The notes below the pieces were generated by a model. The model searched no databases. It worked only from the letters and a program-made list of their open reading frames with translations, and was not told the origin of the DNA. From Friedmanniella sp. (lineage in GTDB: Bacteria; Actinomycetota; Actinomycetes; Propionibacteriales; Propionibacteriaceae): DNA of 10,612 bases. This document shows positions 2,373 to 10,612 of the stretch, piece by piece. Location of the stretch: the NCBI GenBank assembly GCA_025964935.1, contig JAOPXW010000238.1, positions 1-10,612 of the forward strand, written 5' to 3'. Each line of letters begins with the position of its first letter. Positions within the stretch are counted from its first letter, which is position 1. Position numbers and translations under genes: made by a program.

Positions 2373-3848
2373 TCAGTCGTCGGCGAGCAGGGCGTCCAGC
2401 AGGGCCGGGACATCGACGTAGGCGAACCGGATCGCGGAGTCGCTGCAGCCGTACGGGATGACCATGGTGCCGTCGTGCAGCAGCGGTCCGCAGGAGTAGA
2501 CGACGTTGGGCACGTAGCCCTCCCGCTCCTCGGCGTTGGGGGTCAGCAGGGGCCGCTTGAGCTGACCGAGCAGCTTGGTCGGGTCCGCCAGGTCGAGCAG
2601 CATCGCGCCGATGCCGTACCCGCGGACCGGGCCGACGCCGTGCGTCAGGACCAGCCAGCCGGCCTCGGTCTCCAGCGGCGGGCCGCAGTTGCCGAGCTGG
2701 ATGACCTCCCACGGCTGCTCGGGGGTCTCCACGGTGACCGCGTCACCCCACTCGCGGGCGTCGCTGGAGGTGGAGATGCCGATGCTCTCGCGGTCCCAGC
2801 GGGACAGGGCGAAGTAGCGGCCGTCGACCAGCCGCGGGAAGATCGCCATCCCCTTGTCCTTGGCCGCCGGCCCGGTGAGCTGGCTGATCTCGAAGCCGGC
2901 GAAGTCGTCGGTGGTGATCAGGTGCGGGGCGACGTGCACCCCGTCGAAGGCGGTGTAGGTGCCCAGGTAGGTGACCGTGCCGTCGTCGCGGACGAAGCGG
3001 GTGAAGCGGGCGTCCTCGATGCCGTGGCTCTCGTCGGGCGCACGGGGGTAGAGCACCCGCTCCGCCAGCGGCAGCTCGGGGTCGAAGGTGATGCGGTAGT
3101 TGCAGTCCAGCACCCAGCGGATCCGCTCGATCACCGCGCCGGCGCTGCGCCGGGTCGGGTCCGCTGCGGCCAGGGCGCCCACCCGGGCGACCGCCTCGGC
3201 GTCCACGTCCTCGGGCAGCAGCGCCAGCACGTGACCGGGCTCGGCCAGGTCGGGGCGCTCGGCGAGCACGCTGGCGAGGAAGGTGCGGGTCAGCGGGCGC
3301 GCCGACGGCTCCCCGGTGCTCACGTGCCGGCCGGGGTCGTCGACCCGGACGTCCCCGTCGGCGGTCACGACGCCGGTGCGGAACTCGAGGCTGGAGATGT
3401 GACCCTCCCCCACGCCCCGGGCGCTCATCACGAACCGGAGCTCGCCGGGGCCGACCCCGTCCTGGTCGGGGTGGGCCACCAGCGACGGGTTGAGCACGGC
3501 CGCGGACTCGACGGCATACTCCTGCGTGAAGTACGCCCCGATCAGCGCGATGCGGTCGGCGGCCAGGTTGGGCAGGTCGGGCACCCGGTGGGAGGCCGCG
3601 ACCATGAAGTGCCGCCGCAGGGTGGCGGCCAGGTCGCGGTGCCGGTCGCCGTAGAGGGCCAGGGTGTCCCCCAGCGTCTCGGCCACGACCTCGTCACTCA
3701 TGGCCAACACCCGGTTGATCACCGCCTGGGCGCGGGAGAGCCCGCTGGCCAGGGTCTCCTGGCCGGGCAGGAACAGCTTGGCCAGCACCCGACGCGGGTC
3801 GGCCACCAGAACTGTCGGTCCGCGCCGGACGATCGCGTCAGCGCTCAA
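2373..3848 (-). CDS. GH130-family glycoside phosphorylase/hydrolase-like protein
   Basis: The predicted protein is 491 aa. Its second half has the five-bladed propeller signature of GH130 enzymes: HGIEDARFT (276-283), [10 protein letters not shown] (330-339), [20 protein letters not shown] (386-405), [11 protein letters not shown] (444-454) and [15 protein letters not shown] (466-480). Characterised GH130 members are phosphorylases or hydrolases acting on beta-linked mannosides, with the acid Asp in the EDPR-type motif. Here that motif reads EDAR, with candidate catalytic Asp279. About 110 N-terminal residues precede the core, and it is longer than many GH130 enzymes. The substrate cannot be read from the sequence. 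The start is a TTG forming TTGA with the upstream gene's TGA, the same 4-nt overlap style as the junction before it. This start keeps the N-terminal [16 protein letters not shown]. It is the last gene of the operon. Family assignment is firm; activity is inferred. Confidence 0.88.
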
Positions 3849-4930
3849 CGAGCCGATCCCAGCCGGCGCGCGTGCTGGAAGGTGGAGATCATCGCCATGG
3901 TGGATTCGGCTCCCTGGTTCTCGTTGCGTCCGTGACGATGGAGTCCATCGCACCCGCCGCCGGTGTCGGGGTCCACCAAGGAGGTGGCCGCGTCGTTGGC
4001 GCCGTGGAACCAAGCCTCGCAGCGCAGCACCGCGGTCCGCCACCGGGGGTCACCGGTGAGGGCGTACGCCCGGGCGCAGGCGTCCGCCAGGGAGGAGACC
4101 TCGATGGGCTGCTGGTCGAAGCCGGGGCGCGGCTCGCCGTGCACCCAGCCCCCGACCGGGGTGACCGAGATGTGCTCGCCGCGGGTCTCCACGTCGAGCA
4201 GCCAGCCCAGCAGGGCCAGCCCGTCGGCGCGCAGCTCCGGCTCGTCCAGCCACTCCCCCGCCGCCACCAGCACCTCGGGCAGACTCGCGTTGGAGTAGCG
4301 CAGCCGGGGCTCGGGCCAGGGCCAGCCGGGTCGACCGGACGCGCCGCCGCTGCGGCGGTCGGGGTGCAGCCGGGTCCGGACCGCGATCGCGTGGGCCGCG
4401 TCCCGCAGCAGGCTCCGGGCGACCTCGTGCTCGGGGTAGCGGGTCAGGACCTCCGCCGCACCCAGCGCCGCGTACGCCATGGCCATCAGCCACGGGGCAC
4501 GCCGGGCGGCGCCGATCTCGAAGTGCCGCAGGGCCGTCCGCGCCGCCTCCGAGCCGGGGTCGAGCCGCGCGGCGGCGGTGCCGAGGCCCCACAGGGCGCG
4601 GCCCCAGCAGTCCTCCAGGGTCGGCTCGTCGGTCCAGTGCAGGGTCAGGTCGCGCCGGTTGTGGAACCGGCCGTCCTCGGTCTGGGCCTCCACCACCAGC
4701 CACAGGTAGAACTCGGCCAGATCGGTCAGCTCCGGGCTGCGGCCGGGCTCGCGGGCGGCCACGATCAGACCGCGGGCGATGTCGTCCACGCAGTAGCCGT
4801 GCTCGGGCCGGGGGGTGGACAGCTCGGCGTGCTCGTAGAGGCCGCCGTCGTCACTGAGCCGGAAGAGGTGCTCGAAGGAGACCGGGGCGTCGGAGGAGCC
4901 GGCGGGCTCCCCGAGGCCGGACCGGCTCAC
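3845..4930 (-). CDS. (alpha/alpha)-barrel, six-hairpin glycosidase-like protein
   Basis: The predicted protein is 361 aa. It has no signal peptide or membrane segment and is probably cytoplasmic. The sequence is a series of amphipathic helices with conserved-looking loop motifs: HGYCVDDIARGLIVA (44-58), EDCWGRALWGLG (106-117), PWLMAMAYAALGAAE (146-160), RYSNASLPEVLVAAG (211-225) and GGCDGLHRHGRNENQGAEST (325-344). This pattern fits the six-hairpin glycosidase superfamily fold. Relatives are found beside, or fused to, GT4 glycosyltransferases and next to GH130 genes, which matches the context here. I do not recognise a characterised member, so reaction and substrate are unknown. The GTG start at 4930 overlaps the upstream GT4 stop as GTGA, and the gene ends in a TTGA overlap with the GH130 gene. 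This implies tight translational coupling of all three. Confidence 0.72.
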   Translation of the reverse strand: MSRSGLGEPAGSSDAPVSFEHLFRLSDDGGLYEHAELSTPRPEHGYCVDDIARGLIVAAREPGRSPELTDLAEFYLWLVVEAQTEDGRFHNRRDLTLHWTDEPTLEDCWGRALWGLGTAAARLDPGSEAARTALRHFEIGAARRAPWLMAMAYAALGAAEVLTRYPEHEVARSLLRDAAHAIAVRTRLHPDRRSGGASGRPGWPWPEPRLRYSNASLPEVLVAAGEWLDEPELRADGLALLGWLLDVETRGEHISVTPVGGWVHGEPRPGFDQQPIEVSSLADACARAYALTGDPRWRTAVLRCEAWFHGANDAATSLVDPDTGGGCDGLHRHGRNENQGAESTMAMISTFQHARRLGSAR

Positions 4931-6060
4931 GCGCTGGCCAGAGCCGCGGCGGGCTGCCGGATCGCGCCGGCGACCTGACGGTAGCGGTCGGCCACGGCGG
5001 GCCACAGCAGGTCGGGAGCGATCCGGTTGGCCTCCCTGGCCATGGACCGGGCGAGGCCCGGCTCGGTCATGATCCGGCGTAGGGCCGCGGCGATGCCGGC
5101 CGGGTCCTGCCGGTCCACCAGCAGCCCGGCGCCGCTGGAGAGCAGCTCGACGGCGTGCGGGAAACGGGTGGAGACGACCGGCTTGCCCGCCGTGACCGCC
5201 TCGATCAGCACCCCCGACGTGACCTGCTCACGGGAGTCGTACGGCAGCAGCACGATGTCGGCCTGCTGCACGATCCGGTGCAGCTCGGCCTTGTCGATGT
5301 AGCGGTCCTCGAAGACGACCATCCCGTCCCAGCCGGCCCCGGTGTGCTCGACCAGCATCTCCCGGTAGACCTCGCCGCGCACGGCCTTGACCTTGGGGTG
5401 GGTCTGGCCCACGACCCAGTACTCCGGGCGGGGGTCCAGGTCGGACAGGGTCGCCATGGCGTCGATGGCCCACTCGATGCCCTTGCCCTCGCCCAGCAGG
5501 CCCCAGGTCAGGACGACCGGGCCGCGACCGGCGACCTCGGGGGCCGGCGCGGCGTCGACCAGCGGGGACGGCTCGGCACCGTGCGGGATGACCTGGACCT
5601 GGCCGGCGTCGACCTCGTAGTGCGCGAGCAGCCGCTGACGGGCGGTCTCGGTCATGGTCACCAGGACGCTGGAGTTCCGGGCCAGCTCCTCGAGGATCTC
5701 GCGCTGGTGCTCCGAGGGGGTGACCAGGACGGTGTGCAGGACCACGATCGTGGGAACGCGCAGGGCCCGGACCAGGGGCAGGATCTCGTCGCCGTCGTGG
5801 CCGGGGAAGATGCCGTACTCGTGCTGGATGACGGCGACGTCGTAGCTGTTCAGGGCCGCGGCGGCGGACTCGGCTCCGCGGGGGGTCCCGCGGACCCAGG
5901 TGTGGTCGACCGGGGCGGGGCTCTCCCCCGGGTCCATCACGCGGACGACCCCGACCCGGTTGGCGGGCGAGGAGATGGCGGCCACCAGGGCGCGGCTGAA
6001 GCTGGCCAGGCCGCACTGGGTGGGCGGGTAGGTGCTCAGGACTCCGTAGGACATCGACAC
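4927..6060 (-). CDS. GT4-family glycosyltransferase, first gene of the glycan operon
   Basis: The predicted protein is 377 aa with a GT-B fold of the retaining GT4 family. It would transfer a sugar from a nucleotide donor to an unknown acceptor in the cytoplasm. Visible signatures are the N-terminal CGLASFSRALVAA acceptor-side loop (16-28), VIQHEYGIFPG (78-88), LTWGLLGEGKGIEWAIDAM (185-202), the donor-site stretch SREQVTSGVLIEAVTAGKPV (276-295) and GAGLLVD (310-316). The usual EX7E pair is changed: the first Glu position is Gln279, with Glu278 just before it, and the second is Glu287. The GTG at 6060 is chosen because AAGGAAGG at 6068-6075 is seven bases upstream. The ATG two codons later (6054) is possible. 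It leads the operon with the six-hairpin protein and the GH130 gene, and is divergent from a second GT4. Donor and acceptor are unknown. Confidence 0.9.
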   Translation of the reverse strand: MSMSYGVLSTYPPTQCGLASFSRALVAAISSPANRVGVVRVMDPGESPAPVDHTWVRGTPRGAESAAAALNSYDVAVIQHEYGIFPGHDGDEILPLVRALRVPTIVVLHTVLVTPSEHQREILEELARNSSVLVTMTETARQRLLAHYEVDAGQVQVIPHGAEPSPLVDAAPAPEVAGRGPVVLTWGLLGEGKGIEWAIDAMATLSDLDPRPEYWVVGQTHPKVKAVRGEVYREMLVEHTGAGWDGMVVFEDRYIDKAELHRIVQQADIVLLPYDSREQVTSGVLIEAVTAGKPVVSTRFPHAVELLSSGAGLLVDRQDPAGIAAALRRIMTEPGLARSMAREANRIAPDLLWPAVADRYRQVAGAIRQPAAALASA

Positions 6061-6325
6061 GGGCGAACCTTCCTTCTGACGCGTACGTGGACACGTTCAG
6101 CGGACAGCGGGGCGTCGGCGGCACTTCGGACCGGGTGACGGTTGAAGCGGTACCGCCGGGGCCAGGTGGCCGCGATGGGCACAGCAGTGGAGCGTCGTGC
6201 GCTGACCGGCGGGCCGCACCCGTTCCGCGTCGGTTGACGCCCGGGGGCCGTACGGTCGATCCTGCGCCGCGCTGCGCTGATCTGAACAGATTGTCGGGTC
6301 GTGGCCACGACCGCCGACAGAGTTG

Positions 6326-6334
6326 ATTTTAGCA
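6326..6334 (-). promoter_or_regulatory. Extended -10 element for the minus-strand glycan operon
   Basis: On the minus strand this reads TGCTAAAAT: TAAAAT matches TATAAT at five of six positions and is preceded by an extended TGN. No TTGACA-like -35 lies 17 bases upstream, which an extended -10 may tolerate. Transcription would start near 6319, leaving a leader of about 260 nt. The 22-bp palindrome lies about 18-40 bp upstream of this element, a position suited to a repressor or activator. Confidence 0.45.
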
Positions 6335-6351
6335 TTCCCAGGCCGGCTCGC

Positions 6352-6373
6352 CTGCCACCCCTAGGGGTGGCAG
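6352..6373. promoter_or_regulatory. Perfect 22-bp palindrome, probable operator
   Basis: The left arm CTGCCACCCCT is followed directly by its exact reverse complement, with CTAG at the centre. An 8-bp direct repeat GCTCGCCT sits at each side (6346-6353 and 6373-6380). With no spacer it is more likely a protein-binding dyad than an RNA hairpin. The CCACCCC...GGGGTGG pattern resembles, from memory, the G-tract operators of the CsoR/RcnR (DUF156) repressors, including the M. tuberculosis CsoR site. No such regulator is in the window. It is placed between two divergent promoters and could control both. Confidence 0.6.
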
Positions 6374-6406
6374 CTCGCCTCTCCCGCGTCCGGCCGTACG
6401 GCGGCG

Positions 6407-6412
6407 TAGGTT
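6407..6412 (+). promoter_or_regulatory. Possible -10 for the plus-strand GT4
   Basis: TAGGTT lies about 70 bases before the GT4 start and about 34 bases past the palindrome. It keeps the T, A and final T of an actinobacterial -10. There is no recognisable -35. Weak. Confidence 0.2.
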
Positions 6413-6471
6413 GGCAGCCCCGGCTCCCGCCTGCCGTCGGCGGCTCGACGCCGGCAGGCCCGCCCCGTCGC

Positions 6472-6476
6472 AAGGA
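6472..6476 (+). promoter_or_regulatory. Ribosome binding site that fixes the plus-strand GT4 start
   Basis: AAGGA is followed by six bases and then ATG at 6483. This rejects longer readings that begin upstream at 6411, which would add about 24 residues not typical of GT4 N-termini. Confidence 0.8.
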
Positions 6477-6482
6477 CCCTCT

Positions 6483-7499
6483 ATGCGGATCGGCGTCATC
6501 GCCTCCATCGCCCACCGGACCCCGCCCATCGGGTACGGCCCGTGGGAGCAGGTCGCCTCGACCCTGGCCGAGGGCTACCTGGCCCGGGGGCACGAGGTGA
6601 CGCTGTTCGCCACCGCGAACTCCCTCACCGGCGGTCGGCTGGTGAGTCCCGTGGCCGAGGGCTACGAGGAGGCCGACGGCGTCGACGCCAAGGTCGGTGA
6701 GGCTCTGCACCTGGGCGCCGCCTTCGAGCACGCCGGCGAGCTCGACGTGCTGCACAACCACTTCGACTTCTTCCCCCTCAGCTACAGCCGGCTGGTGAGC
6801 ACGCCGATGGTGACGACGGTCCACGGGTTCTCCTCGGAGCAGATCGTGCCGGTCTACCGCACCTACAACGACGTGGCGCACTACGTGGCCATCAGCGACG
6901 CGGATCGCCACCCGGATCTGGTCTACGACGCCACGATCCACCACGGCATCGACACCGACTCCTTCACCGTCGGGTCGGGGACCGGTGGCTACCTGCTCTT
7001 CCTGGGGCGGATCCACCCCGACAAGGGCACCCACCGGGCGATCACGGTGGCCCGCCGGGCCGGGCTGCCCCTGGTCATCGCCGGCATCGTGCAGGACCGG
7101 GCCTACTTCGAGGCGCAGGTCGCGCCACACCTGGACGGCCGCGACGTGCGCTACGTGGGGTCCGTCGGGCCGGCCGAGCGGGACCGGCTGCTGGGCGGAG
7201 CAACGGCACTGCTGCACCTGATCGCGTTCGCAGAGCCGTTCGGGCTGTCGGTGGTCGAGTCGCTGGCCACCGGCACCCCGGTCATCGCCGCCCCGCTGGG
7301 GTCGATGCCCGAGCTGATCCGCGACGGGGTAGGGGGCTTCCTGGTCCATGACGACGACGAGGCCGTGGCGGCGGTGTCCCGGCTGACCGAGGTCGATCGG
7401 GCCGGTTGCCGGGCCGAGGCCGTGACCCGGTTCGGCGCGGACCGGATGGTCGAGGAGTACCTGACGCTGTTCGAGCGCATCCTGGCCCGGCGGGGCTGA
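6483..7499 (+). CDS. GT4-family glycosyltransferase (divergent partner)
   Basis: The predicted protein is 338 aa, a retaining GT-B glycosyltransferase. The N-terminus MRIGVIASIAHRTPPIGYGPWEQV carries the glycine-rich acceptor loop of this GT4 subgroup, followed by HNHFDFFPLSY, TVHGFSS and AISDADR. The donor half shows LLFLGRIHPDKGTHRAI, then FAEPFGLSVVESLATGTPVIA with an intact EX7E motif (Glu251 and Glu259), then GSMPELIRDGVGGFLV. It has no signal peptide or membrane helix. The start is fixed by AAGGA six bases upstream of the ATG. It reads away from the GT4/six-hairpin/GH130 operon and may share the intervening palindrome as an operator. Genes of this subgroup are often found near GH130 genes, so a common glycan pathway is likely. 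Donor and acceptor sugars are unknown. Confidence 0.92.
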   Translation: MRIGVIASIAHRTPPIGYGPWEQVASTLAEGYLARGHEVTLFATANSLTGGRLVSPVAEGYEEADGVDAKVGEALHLGAAFEHAGELDVLHNHFDFFPLSYSRLVSTPMVTTVHGFSSEQIVPVYRTYNDVAHYVAISDADRHPDLVYDATIHHGIDTDSFTVGSGTGGYLLFLGRIHPDKGTHRAITVARRAGLPLVIAGIVQDRAYFEAQVAPHLDGRDVRYVGSVGPAERDRLLGGATALLHLIAFAEPFGLSVVESLATGTPVIAAPLGSMPELIRDGVGGFLVHDDDEAVAAVSRLTEVDRAGCRAEAVTRFGADRMVEEYLTLFERILARRG

Positions 7500-7511
7500 G
7501 CCGAGTCCACC

Positions 7512-7524
7512 GGCGGGCCCCGCC
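7512..7524. terminator. Short hairpin between convergent genes
   Basis: GGCGG, a three-base loop GCC, then CCGCC lies in the 39-nt gap between the convergent GT4 and kinase genes. On the plus strand it is followed, after TGA, by a run of eleven C. No U-tract is present. It could act as a terminator in either direction. The short stem makes the call tentative. Confidence 0.35.
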
Positions 7525-7527
7525 TGA

Positions 7528-7538
7528 CCCCCCCCCCC
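7528..7538. repeat. C11/G11 homopolymer next to the kinase stop codon
   Basis: Eleven consecutive C on the plus strand read as G11 directly after the TGA of the kinase on the minus strand. It lies outside both coding regions, so a length change would not alter either protein. It is a possible sequencing or assembly length error. Confidence 0.9.
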
Positions 7539-9197
7539 TCACAGACCGCTGGGGACCGTCCAGAGCAGCCGGAGGCCGCCACCCTCGACGGGCTCCAGCG
7601 TCATCGACCCCCCGAGCCGCTCGGCCCGCTGCCGCAGGTTGGCCAGACCGCTGCGCCGGGTCGTGGTGTCGAGCCCGCGACCGTTGTCGGCCACCACCAC
7701 GGTCAGCGCCTCCTCGCTCGCCCGAACCTCCACCGAGACCTCCGACGCGCCCGCGTGCTTGGCCACGTTGCTGAGCGACTCCCGGACCACCGCCTCCACG
7801 TCGGCCGCGGCGGGTCCGGCCATCGTGTCGACCGGCCCGTCCAGGACCAGCCCGGGCTTGAAGCCCAGGACGGGCGTCAGCTCCTCCACCATCCGGAGGA
7901 TCCGGCCGCGCAGCGAGCTGGCCACCGGCCCCGACCCGTGCAGGGCGAAGATCGAGGTCCGGACCTGCCGGATGGTCCCGTCCAGGTCCTCGATGGTCTG
8001 CCACAGGCGCTTGCGGAGCTCGGGATCCTGGACCCGGGTGAGGCTGCCCTCCAGCCGCATCCCGGCGGCGAACAGCCGCTGCACCACGTGCTCGTGCAGG
8101 TCGCGGGCGATCCGGTCGCGATCCTCCAGCACCGCGAGCCGCTCCCGGGAGGAGCGCGCATCCAGCAGCTCCAGGGCCAGCGCCGTCTGGCTGGCGAAGC
8201 CGGCAGCCATGTCCAGGTCGAAGGCCACGAAGGGCCTCCGCGGGACCCGCCCCGCCACGATCGCCCCGTGGCAGCTGGTCTCGCCCTGGAGTGGCAGCGC
8301 CATCACCTGGGTGACGTTGACGAACTGGCGCAGGTGGACGGGCAGACCCTGGCTCACGTCCACGTCGTCGCGGATCCGCCCGCGCCGCTCCTGCATCACC
8401 TGCTGCCCCAGGCTGCCCTTCGCGAGGTAGCGCAACCCGGTCAGCTCGGCCTGCGCCAGCCCGACCGCGACCACCACCCGCAGCAGCTCCGCGTCGTCGG
8501 GGTCGGGCAGGACGACCGTGACGACGTCGGCAGAGGTCAGCCGCAGCACCGCGCGCGCGATGACTTCCAGCACCTCGACCCCCCCGCCGCGGGCCACCGC
8601 GAGCCGGCGGGTGATCTCGGCAGAGGCCTCCAGCCAGGTCTGTCGGTAGCGGGACTGTTCGTAGAGGCGGGCGTTGGCGATCGCGGTGCCGGCGTTGGCG
8701 GCGAGAGCGGCGGCCAGCCTCTCGTCCTGCTCGCTGAAGACCCCACCGTCCGGTCCGTTCGCCAGGTAGAGGTTGCCGAAAGTCTCCTCCCGTACGCGGA
8801 CCGGCACCCCCAGGAAGGCCGACATCGGCGGGTGGCCCTCCGGGAAGCCCGAGGACCGCGGGTCCTGGCCGAGGACGGGCAGCCGGATCGGCCGGGGGTC
8901 CTGGATCAGCGCCCCGAGGAGCCCCTTGCCCTTGGGCAGGTCGCCGATGGCCGCCACCGTGCCCGGGTCCATGCCCAGGTGCACGAACTGCTCCAGCCCG
9001 CCGTCGGGGCCCAGCACGCCGAGCGCGGCGTAGTCGGCCCCGGTCGTCTCCCGGGCCGCCGCCACCACGCGGCTCAGGACCTCGTCCAGGGTGAGGGCGG
9101 CGACGATGCTGCGGTTGGCCTCGAGCAGACGCTCCAGCCGCTCGGCCGCGTCGTCGTGGACGCCGCCGGCCGAAGTGTGCCGACCCTGGTCGACCAC
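7539..9197 (-). CDS. DevS/DosS-like two-GAF sensor histidine kinase
   Basis: The predicted protein is 552 aa, with tandem GAF domains (about 25-180 and 190-345), a HisKA_3 dimerisation/phosphoacceptor region (about 355-420) and an HATPase domain to the end. The H-box DRDRIARDLHEHVVQRLFA gives phosphoacceptor His368. The ATP site has ESLSNVAKHA (Asn477), DNGRGLD (504-510) and GLANLRQRAERLGGS (517-531). It has no membrane segment, so it is a soluble sensor. The first GAF is close to M. tuberculosis DevS/DosS: LPKGKGLLGALIQDPRPIRL, GHPPMSAFLGVPVRVR and FGNLYL. His122 and Tyr144 align with the DevS haem ligand His149 and distal Tyr171, so haem-based redox, O2 or NO sensing is plausible but unproven. 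The start is uncertain: GTG at 9197 has a G-run about five bases upstream, whereas GTG at 9203 abuts it. No response regulator is in the window. A cation-pump gene is divergent. Confidence 0.92.
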   Translation of the reverse strand: MVDQGRHTSAGGVHDDAAERLERLLEANRSIVAALTLDEVLSRVVAAARETTGADYAALGVLGPDGGLEQFVHLGMDPGTVAAIGDLPKGKGLLGALIQDPRPIRLPVLGQDPRSSGFPEGHPPMSAFLGVPVRVREETFGNLYLANGPDGGVFSEQDERLAAALAANAGTAIANARLYEQSRYRQTWLEASAEITRRLAVARGGGVEVLEVIARAVLRLTSADVVTVVLPDPDDAELLRVVVAVGLAQAELTGLRYLAKGSLGQQVMQERRGRIRDDVDVSQGLPVHLRQFVNVTQVMALPLQGETSCHGAIVAGRVPRRPFVAFDLDMAAGFASQTALALELLDARSSRERLAVLEDRDRIARDLHEHVVQRLFAAGMRLEGSLTRVQDPELRKRLWQTIEDLDGTIRQVRTSIFALHGSGPVASSLRGRILRMVEELTPVLGFKPGLVLDGPVDTMAGPAAADVEAVVRESLSNVAKHAGASEVSVEVRASEEALTVVVADNGRGLDTTTRRSGLANLRQRAERLGGSMTLEPVEGGGLRLLWTVPSGL

Positions 9198-9230
9198 GCT
9201 CACCCCCCATGATCGTGAACCAACGCCTCC

Positions 9231-9236
9231 ACGGTA
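9231..9236 (-). promoter_or_regulatory. Possible -10 of the kinase gene
   Basis: On the minus strand this reads TACCGT, keeping the TA....T frame of a -10 element, about 34 bases before the start. The same hexamer occurs in the divergent direction at 9371-9376. No clear -35. Weak. Confidence 0.25.
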
Positions 9237-9310
9237 GCCCGGGACCCCGCGGAGGGCGACAGGTTCGCCGTCTCCGCCCGTACGCCGTCCCGACCACCCC
9301 CGGGCCCGGT

Positions 9311-9324
9311 GGGACTTCGGTCCC
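9311..9324. promoter_or_regulatory. DosR/DevR-box-like palindrome
   Basis: The sequence GGGACTTCGGTCCC matches the core of the M. tuberculosis DosR/DevR consensus, GGGACTWWAGTCCC, at 12 of 14 positions. It is a perfect GGGAC/GTCCC inverted repeat around TTCG. It lies between a DevS-like kinase and a P-type ATPase. I found no other match of this quality in the window. Extra half-sites GTCCC (9287-9291) and GGGAC (9377-9381) lie nearby. If transcription of the pump starts near 9383, the box centre is about 65 bp upstream, within the range of distal DosR sites. The alternative is an RNA hairpin with a UUCG tetraloop. Confidence 0.6.
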
Positions 9325-9370
9325 TGTCGCCCCCGACCTCCGCCCCGGGCGCCGGGGTCACCCGGTTGCC

Positions 9371-9376
9371 TACCGT
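9371..9376 (+). promoter_or_regulatory. Possible -10 of the ATPase gene
   Basis: TACCGT follows GGTTGCC and precedes GGGACGAGG. Only the TA....T positions fit, and there is no -35, as is usual for activator-dependent promoters. It is placed from the position of the DosR-like box, so it is an inference. Confidence 0.25.
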
Positions 9377-9412
9377 GGGACGAGGGCCGCCGAGGCCGAG
9401 GACAGGAGCCCC

Positions 9413-9454
9413 ATGACGCCGGACGAGACGACGCCCCCGTGCCTGAGGGCCTGA
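9413..9454 (+). other. Short ORF with a good ribosome binding site overlapping the ATPase start
   Basis: ATG at 9413 is preceded by AGGAG at 9404-9408 with four bases between them. It opens only 13 codons (MTPDETTPPCLRA) before TGA. It overlaps the GTG proposed for the ATPase in another frame. Adding one C to the C5 run at 9434-9438 would fuse it in frame to the ATPase (MTPDETTPPVPEGLTS). It is therefore either a true short leader ORF, the real ATPase start broken by a one-base sequence error, or a natural frameshift. The sequence alone cannot decide. Confidence 0.45.
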
Positions 9455-10612
9455 CCTCCACCGAGGGTCTGACCCCCACCGGCGGCCTGACCTCGGTGGA
9501 GGCCGCCCGGCTGCTGGCGCAGCTGGGCCCGAACCGCCCGCCCGAGCACCGGGGGCGGTCGCTGCCCCGTCGCCTGGCCGCGGCGCTGGCCGAGCCGCTG
9601 GTGGTCGTCCTGCTGGTCGCGGCCGTGCTGACGGCCCTGACCCGGGACTGGTCCGACCTGGCCGTCATCGTCCTGGTCGTCACGGTCAACACCAGCCTCG
9701 GCCTCGCCCAGGAGCTGCGGGCCGAGGGGGCGGTGCGGGCCCTGGCCCGTCTGTCCACGCCGACCGCCCGGGTGGTGCGGGACGGCCGGGAGGCGATGGT
9801 CGACGCCGACACGCTGGTCCCCGGCGACCTGCTGGTGATCACCGAGGGCGACGGGGTCGCGGCGGACGGCCGGGTGGTGGAGGCGGCGGCGCTGGCCCTG
9901 GACGAGTCACTGGTCACCGGTGAGGCGCAGCCGGTGGACCGCGGCGTCGGGGAGACCGTGCTCGCCGGCACGGTGACCACCCACGGGCGGGCGCGTGTGG
10001 TCGTCACCGCCACCGGGGCGGCGAGCCAGCTCGGACGGGTGAGCGGCCAGCTCGCCGTACGGGAGCGCCCGACGCCGCTGCAACGGCGGATGACGCAGCT
10101 CTCCCGCGTCCTGGCCACGGTCGTGGTGCTGCTCTGTCTGGTGGTGCTGGCGCTCGGCCTGTGGCGGGGCCAACCACTGGAGCTGATGCTGCTGACCGCG
10201 ATCAGCCTGGCCGTCGCCGCCGTCCCGGAGTCGCTGCCCGTGGTGGTGACGATGACCCTGACCCTGGCCACGCGCCGGATGGCGCGCCGGCACGCCGTCG
10301 TGCGCTCGCTCTCCGCCGCCGAGACGCTGGGATCGGTGACCCTGCTGGCCACCGACAAGACCGGCACCCTGACCCACGGGCGGATGGCGGTCACCCAGCT
10401 GGTCTGCGCGCCGGACGTGACCCGGGCCGACCTGCTCGGGGCGGCCGTGCTCTGCAACGACGCCCAGCTCGACCAACCCGGCGGGGTGACCCACCTCGGC
10501 GACCCCACCGAGGTGGCCCTGCTGCAGGCGGCCCGGGCCGCCGGGCTGGACGTCGACGGCGTCCGGAGGGCGGCACCCCGTACGGCTGAGCACCCCTTCG
10601 ACAGTGCGACCC
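9439..10612 (+). CDS. P2-type cation-transporting ATPase, CtpF-like (3' truncated by window edge)
   Basis: The reading frame is open for 391 codons to the window edge. The order follows P2 ATPases. First is a cation-ATPase N-terminal domain, GLTSVEAARLLAQLGPNRP, then two membrane helices (LVVVLLVAAVLTAL and DLAVIVLVVTVNTSLG). Next is the actuator domain with TGE (160-162), then two more helices with the ion-site motif PESLP (263-267). The P-domain follows with phosphorylated Asp306 in DKTGTLT, and the nucleotide domain with GDPTEVALL (354-362). PESLP and GDPTE point to the Ca2+/Mg2+-type group rather than heavy-metal pumps, since no CPC is present. M. tuberculosis CtpF, a DosR-regulon member, is a relative. 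The ion cannot be settled here. The GTG at 9439 is the only start in this frame after the last upstream break and has a weak ribosome site. The reading frame could instead begin at ATG 9413 if a base is missing. Confidence 0.9.
   Translation, partial: MPEGLTSTEGLTPTGGLTSVEAARLLAQLGPNRPPEHRGRSLPRRLAAALAEPLVVVLLVAAVLTALTRDWSDLAVIVLVVTVNTSLGLAQELRAEGAVRALARLSTPTARVVRDGREAMVDADTLVPGDLLVITEGDGVAADGRVVEAAALALDESLVTGEAQPVDRGVGETVLAGTVTTHGRARVVVTATGAASQLGRVSGQLAVRERPTPLQRRMTQLSRVLATVVVLLCLVVLALGLWRGQPLELMLLTAISLAVAAVPESLPVVVTMTLTLATRRMARRHAVVRSLSAAETLGSVTLLATDKTGTLTHGRMAVTQLVCAPDVTRADLLGAAVLCNDAQLDQPGGVTHLGDPTEVALLQAARAAGLDVDGVRRAAPRTAEHPFDSAT

Follow-up and report, generated by a model that had tools for sequence, protein, structure and literature searches.

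A kinase and a cation pump gene diverge from a palindromic box

The DNA analysed here is a 10,612-nt window that spans contig C326 from end to end; the contig is one of 417 in a 2.95-Mb assembly from an uncultured, non-mycobacterial actinobacterium. It encodes a DevS/DosT-type sensor histidine kinase, termed K1, and a P2-type cation ATPase, transcribed back to back, with the palindrome GGGAC-TTCG-GTCCC in the gap between the two genes (Table 1). These elements had been pointed out in an initial annotation, and the divergent arrangement, the exact palindrome—the sole exact match in the window—and the non-mycobacterial host were all borne out. The end coordinate given there, 10612, is not a gene end: the contig stops at this position, within the ATPase gene. 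We consider the window to be one end of a DosR-type locus responsive to hypoxia or nitric oxide (NO), a reading to which we assign a probability of roughly 0.72.

Table 1 Features of the window and of contig C346 (positions refer to the window unless a locus is named).
Feature	Position	Strand	Basis
K1, two-GAF DevS/DosT-type sensor histidine kinase, 556 aa from the GTG read as start	7539..9209	-	Pfam GAF x2, HisKA_3, HATPase_c
K1 HisKA_3 + HATPase_c, intact H-, N- and D-boxes (DLHEH 370, ESLSN 477, VADNG 506)	7551..8120	-	Pfam and kinase alignment
K1 GAF-B	8169..8576	-	Pfam GAF_3, residues 212-347
K1 GAF-A, predicted heme pocket His126 (codon 8832-8834), Tyr148, Gly64	8652..9089	-	alignment to DosT/DevS GAF-A chains, residues 41-186
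Divergent intergenic region	9210..9438	.	sequence and open reading frames
DosR-type box GGGACTTCGGTCCC	9311..9324	.	exact sequence match; form enriched at DevS/DevR loci
14-codon frame (stop included), 13 residues	9414..9455	+	ATG with AGGAG upstream; overlaps the ATPase GTG start in a different frame
P2-type cation ATPase, N-terminal half	9439..10612	+	Cation_ATPase_N, E1-E2_ATPase, start of N domain; cut by contig end
K2, one-GAF DevS-type kinase, degenerate ATP site	L065 (C346) 6956-8092	-	overlaps R1 start by 25 bases

K1 has the domain order of DevS and DosT: two GAF domains, HisKA_3 and HATPase_c. The best solved match of its GAF-A was 2vzw, which we take to be the GAF-A of DosT (E 5.5e-43), with DevS GAF-A chains next, supporting the earlier description of a DevS-like two-GAF kinase. 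A His, a Tyr and a Gly of GAF-A have roles in heme sensing. Alignment to 2vzw and the DevS chains revealed K1 to keep the His of HPPM (residue 126) and the Tyr of NLYL, and to carry a Gly at the position occupied by Gly in DosT and by Glu in DevS. Because His, Tyr and the DosT-type Gly are all kept, K1 is predicted to be DosT-like. In an 18-row kinase alignment (L075 and L288 left out), the heme-ligand His and Tyr of GAF-A were retained in K1 and in two further kinases of this genome, K2 and K3, described below.

The box is enriched at DevS/DevR loci in a spacing-specific manner

Distances from the box are 102 bp to the start assigned to K1 (9209) and 115 bp to the GTG taken as the ATPase start (9439). 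The GGGAC-N4-GTCCC core is located upstream of a regulon-type gene. The exact pattern occurs seven times in the assembly, against two occurrences of the reversed pattern. At this genome rate of ~1 per 421 kb, chance alone would give ~5e-4 sites in a gap of 229 bp and 0.025 in the entire window. Weaker forms gave no signal, be it genome-wide with at most one mismatch (267 versus 202 for the control) or in the window with at most two (9 versus a shuffle mean of 24.6). The window site fits the mycobacterial core GGGACTWWAGTCCC at 12 of 14 positions. A longer mycobacterial form of the box, TTSGGGACTWWAGTCCCSAA, bears TTS...SAA flanks; the flanks here, GGT and TGT, agree with it at none of the six flanking positions, and long-form flanks are likewise missing from other actinobacterial sites.

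To assess the association of the box with this type of locus, we counted GGGAC-n-GTCCC at varying spacings n. Across 80 DevS-type loci from named genomes (the best 80 of 167 relatives found), 21 palindromes had n=4, as compared to 0-7 at each other spacing (n 0-10). Two further sets, from which L228-L231 were left out as these had been fetched for holding the box, gave a similar picture: 21 same-genus loci, cut down to 1.5 kb on account of their kinase or regulator genes, yielded five at n=4 and none elsewhere (n 0-12), and 17 loci of other families six at n=4 and one at n=9, three of the six stemming from a single locus, L216. Finally, 31 loci of the clade to which the ATPase belongs contained 12 at n=4, six at n=3 and 0-3 elsewhere. 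Spacing 4 thus stands out in four of the five locus sets examined, and on the strength of these counts GGGAC-N4-GTCCC is a mark of DevS/DevR loci. It is this spacing signal that lends support to the initial proposal of a DosR-box-like site.

The exact pattern was also more frequent than its reversed control across 20 genomes of the genus (186 versus 90, summed over genomes), albeit unevenly: 21 versus 5 in G014, 18 versus 3 in G018, 6 versus 5 in G019, 5 versus 7 in G016 and 1 versus 4 in G001. Upstream of a flavodoxin gene, GGGACCAACGTCCC was present in two families, 85 bp away in L004 (contig C132 of the present assembly; 1501-1514) and ~77 bp away in L319 (G189; 14609-14622). As a separate observation, boxes lie between divergent TetR-type regulator and NmrA/epimerase-like genes, named by eye, in two genomes of the genus, at L230 (G006; 15282-15328, two in tandem) and L244 (G018; 2914).

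Two DevR-type genes lie on a contig that very probably continues the pump

The ATPase reading frame of the window breaks off at ...HPFDSAT. Another contig of the assembly, C346, starts with a matching ATPase C-terminal half, its reversed sequence beginning VKGAPE.... A genome search with this half returned three places, namely itself, C77 and C368. The pumps of the latter two match the N-terminal half as well, leaving C346 as the only unpaired C-terminal half found. When compared with relatives, the window half and the C346 half gave bit scores that rose and fell together (Spearman 0.89 over 42 rows and 0.90 over 39 rows, duplicates partly left in). The other unpaired N-terminal half, on C107, did not track the C346 half (0.19 and 0.22) and was rejected as its partner: it is 71% identical to the pump of L068 and is itself a member of another clade. 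The gap between the two halves came to 17 residues when judged by four distinct closest relatives, 18 by the next group and -6 to 48 by remoter pumps. From these sequence comparisons, C346 very probably continues the ATPase of the window. For the two contigs to be unconnected, and the DevR genes of C346 to come from another locus, would accord with contig ends that do not overlap, a slightly different G+C content (0.732 versus 0.752) and an assembly only 83% complete; against the complementary halves of one pump type, the lack of any other unpaired C-terminal half among the search results, the matching relatives and the constant short gap, we deem this very improbable.

C346 carries, after the ATPase and on the same strand, the kinase gene K2, a regulator gene R1 that overlaps it, a second regulator gene R2 and a DUF4389 gene; beyond these are a universal stress protein (USP) gene, oppositely oriented, and a flavodoxin gene. 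Among 12 GerE matches in the genome, ten of them over the cut-off, three regulators adjoin DevS-type kinases: R1, R2 and one on C111, where it forms a complete DevS/DevR pair with kinase K3. A genome devoid of DevR-type regulators, which would have spoken against the initial interpretation, is hence not what we found. R1 and R2 consist of a receiver and a GerE domain and have DevR as their closest solved relative (3c3w; 7.6e-69 and 4e-63, respectively). The K-x-x-K-N residues of the recognition helix contact DNA; they are present in both regulators, EKTIKN and EKTVKN aligning to EKTVKN of 3c3w. Since C346 very probably continues the ATPase and bears two DevR-type genes, two statements of the initial annotation are probably wrong, that the response regulator is encoded elsewhere and that kinase and pump make up a compact unit.

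K2 retains the His and Tyr of its GAF domain and the H-box His, but lacks the Asn of the N-box and the first Asp of the D-box. Both of these residues are needed for ATP binding and were retained in all 15 other kinases aligned with K2. A Pfam search of K2 returned no HATPase_c at E <= 0.001. K2 is therefore likely a degenerate partner or pseudokinase, judging from these losses. It is conceivable, if rather doubtful, that K2 acts as a ligand-controlled pseudokinase, either phosphorylated in trans by K1 or draining R1/R2 of phosphate; with two heme sensors at work, one pump and USP regulon would then respond to oxygen in a graded manner or with two thresholds. K2 would lend itself to testing if a DosR-type circuit can be tuned by a heme sensor that does not bind ATP.

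We scanned C346 with the core of a matrix built from the 21 DevS-locus sites. At threshold 9, seven of nine sites were intergenic—two upstream of flavodoxin, one of USP, two of DUF4389 and one of K2, and one near the contig end—and none of 200 column-permuted matrices reached seven. This permutation control applies to threshold 9; over thresholds 8 to 13, the intergenic shares were 7/12, 7/9, 5/7, 4/6, 2/3 and 1/1. The window site had the highest core score on C326 and C346.

The pump falls into a separate P2 subclade

The best solved matches of the ATPase were the Listeria calcium pump lmo0841 for the N-terminal half and SERCA2 for the C-terminal half. Nine aligned members of its clade share PESLP in transmembrane helix (TM) 4 (PESMP in one) and ...THG in TM6. 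Three pumps beside other DevS-type genes have PEGLP, PEGLL and PQLLP, one each, in TM4. On the basis of these motifs we assign the pump to a separate P2 subclade (PESLP/THG). Its TM4 Glu is retained as in LMCA1. As compared to SERCA2, the TM5 Glu and the TM6 Asn and Thr are kept, whereas the TM5 Asn is replaced by Gly and the TM6 Asp by His (NLLTHG here, NLVTDG in SERCA2). Owing to the latter exchange, calcium is not assured as the pumped ion. The label 'CtpF-like' in the initial annotation holds no further than class level, that of a P2-type cation ATPase, the pump being in the PESLP/THG subclade.

Among 293 genomes of the order, 32, the present one included, had an ATPase of this clade at E <= 1e-70. 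Of the 31 other loci, 22 had a USP, DUF4389, PNPOx, flavodoxin, DevS- or DevR-type match within 16-20 kb (raw counts), nine of the 22 with a DevS or DevR type; none of these families occurred at the remaining nine. The locus of G104, from another family, comprises a kinase gene on the minus strand, an exact box, a small membrane-protein gene and the ATPase gene on the plus strand, followed by PNPOx, DevR-type and USP genes and two more boxes. The gene after its box gave a DoxX-like Pfam score below the cut-off. Direct conservation of the box among orthologues could not be assessed because the clade ATPase was missing at E <= 1e-70 from all 19 other same-genus genomes (best 2.6e-56) and because the closest K1 relatives among the matches listed (up to 55%) were not beside a clade ATPase in the loci examined. 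No kinase-box-pump arrangement was described in the titles or abstract openings listed, which is no proof of its being unpublished.

Relation to known DevS/DevR-type systems

The locus resembles the DosS/DosT-DosR (DevS/DevR) system of M. tuberculosis in its two-GAF sensor with heme His, Tyr and DosT-type Gly, its NarL-type regulators close to DevR 3c3w, the box core, and the P2-type pump with USP, flavodoxin or PNPOx genes nearby. It departs from it in the centre and flanks of the box, in the two DevR-type genes and the kinase with degenerate ATP site beside the pump, and in the subclade of the pump. In M. tuberculosis, CtpF has been reported as a DosR-regulated calcium P-type ATPase (PMC9180918); the pump here is likewise a P2-type cation pump and would be under DosR-type control.

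Outside mycobacteria, OsdK-OsdR of Streptomyces coelicolor is likewise a DevR-type system with USP genes nearby, whereas its published 16-nt consensus AGGGCCGATCGGCCCT has GGGCC in place of the GGGAC found here (PMC5069765). PolS-PolR of Microlunatus phosphovorus, a member of the Propionibacteriales, is a DevS/DevR-type pair from what is probably the same genus. PolR, a DevR relative, is reported to bind poly-P and phosphate-transport promoters at a published site, GTTCACnnnnnGTTCaC, unlike the box here, and GGGAC does not appear in the main text of that report (PMC6754071). Genome G019 is probably M. phosphovorus and its locus L296 the pol locus: G019 fits the locus-tag order of the report (PMC6754071), and the DevR-like gene matches 3c3w at E 4.6e-68. 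At 4179-4192, L296 carries an exact GGGACTATCGTCCC between the DevR-type and DevS-type genes, 97 bp before the gene of a 182-aa protein without Pfam family, the counterpart of the gene after the G104 box. The 11 kb retrieved for L296 yielded no gene for a pump. PolR merits re-testing, as its probable locus holds such a box and the published motif differs.

The PolS-PolR precedent bears on the partner of K1. K1 might signal to a distant regulator, such as the partner of K3 on C111, and to other targets, leaving the pump to answer to R1/R2 alone or to neither. In line with this, no regulator gene directly follows K1, its downstream neighbour being a convergent glycosyltransferase gene; a complete DevS/DevR pair exists on C111; and PolR is reported to bind poly-P and phosphate-transport promoters. 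We nonetheless judge such wiring improbable, as R1 and R2 are near on the proposed join and PolR-type GTTCAC repeats are at chance level in the window (6 at <=3 mismatches versus 5.6 expected), with none in the gap.

Proposed mechanism and its weighing

In the DosR-type scheme that we favour, K1 would autophosphorylate its H-box His once its predicted GAF-A heme loses O2 or binds NO or CO. A DevR-type regulator would then receive the phosphate, the simplest candidates being R1 and R2, whose genes follow the ATPase on C346. In its phosphorylated form, this regulator would occupy the palindrome at 9311-9324 and switch on the genes to either side. Activation of K1 would constitute positive feedback on its own sensor, and activation of the pump may reset the ion balance on entry into a non-growing state. 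By virtue of the weaker boxes upstream of them, the K2, DUF4389, USP and flavodoxin genes of C346 would join the same regulon. If true, sensor, box, pump, regulators and dormancy-type genes would stand together in the order of Microlunatus, providing a testable box for the group.

Several observations weigh against this scheme. The window site scores 14.7 on the matrix, whose 21 source sites range from 14.3 to 24.5, and ranks fourth of the seven exact sites in the genome. The initial annotation had named many equal-scoring sites in coding regions as evidence against its reading, and in part they are: at least three of the seven (on C38, C68 and C253) lie inside genes. The C132 site falls within an over-long open frame, yet precedes the flavodoxin start, and the remaining three, the window site among them, are intergenic. 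Of the 21 exact sites in G014, crude gene calls placed 9 inside genes, as they did 10 of the 18 in G018, and the very 14-mer of the window recurs in G018 between ABC transporter and DUF5648/phosphoesterase genes. CGAGG palindromes outnumber GGGAC ones at DevS loci (30 versus 21, and 8 versus 6 in the trimmed/other-family sets); as some other half-site palindromes equal GGGAC in frequency, the enrichment argument rests on spacing. Eighteen untrimmed loci of the order (L066-L083) showed no spacing preference, with three palindromes each at n=4 and n=3, though spacing 4 does stand out once these loci are trimmed to 1.5 kb and others added. A K1-like kinase directly divergent with the box in between was seen in one of the 31 clade loci, that of G104. 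Furthermore, published PolR sites are GTTCAC repeats (PMC6754071), and the contig join is supported by sequence comparison rather than by reads.

Some of these points—the low matrix score, the exact cores inside genes and the identical 14-mer near genes without a dormancy link—could mean that the proteins are what they seem while the palindrome is a chance GC-rich inverted repeat, both genes being controlled otherwise; or it could be an RNA hairpin, the TTCG centre giving C-UUCG-G on the plus strand. We regard either as unlikely. Chance would seldom place an exact box in this very gap, and enrichment at this locus type is specific to one spacing. In addition, DevS-type kinases in G003 and G017 are preceded by GGGACTTAGGTCCC, one base off the window site, which in G017 is read on the opposite strand. 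As to a hairpin, plus-strand RNA around the box folded no more stably than shuffles (z 0.49).

Neighbouring features

The 14-codon frame across the ATPase start is either a short coupled leader or an assembly slip, since one extra base in a C run would merge both frames. Beside K1, window positions 2373-7499 hold a GH130 mannoside-phosphorylase-like gene, two GT4 glycosyltransferase genes and the gene of a 386-aa protein that has no Pfam or NCBIfam family; a threonyl-tRNA synthetase gene adjoins.

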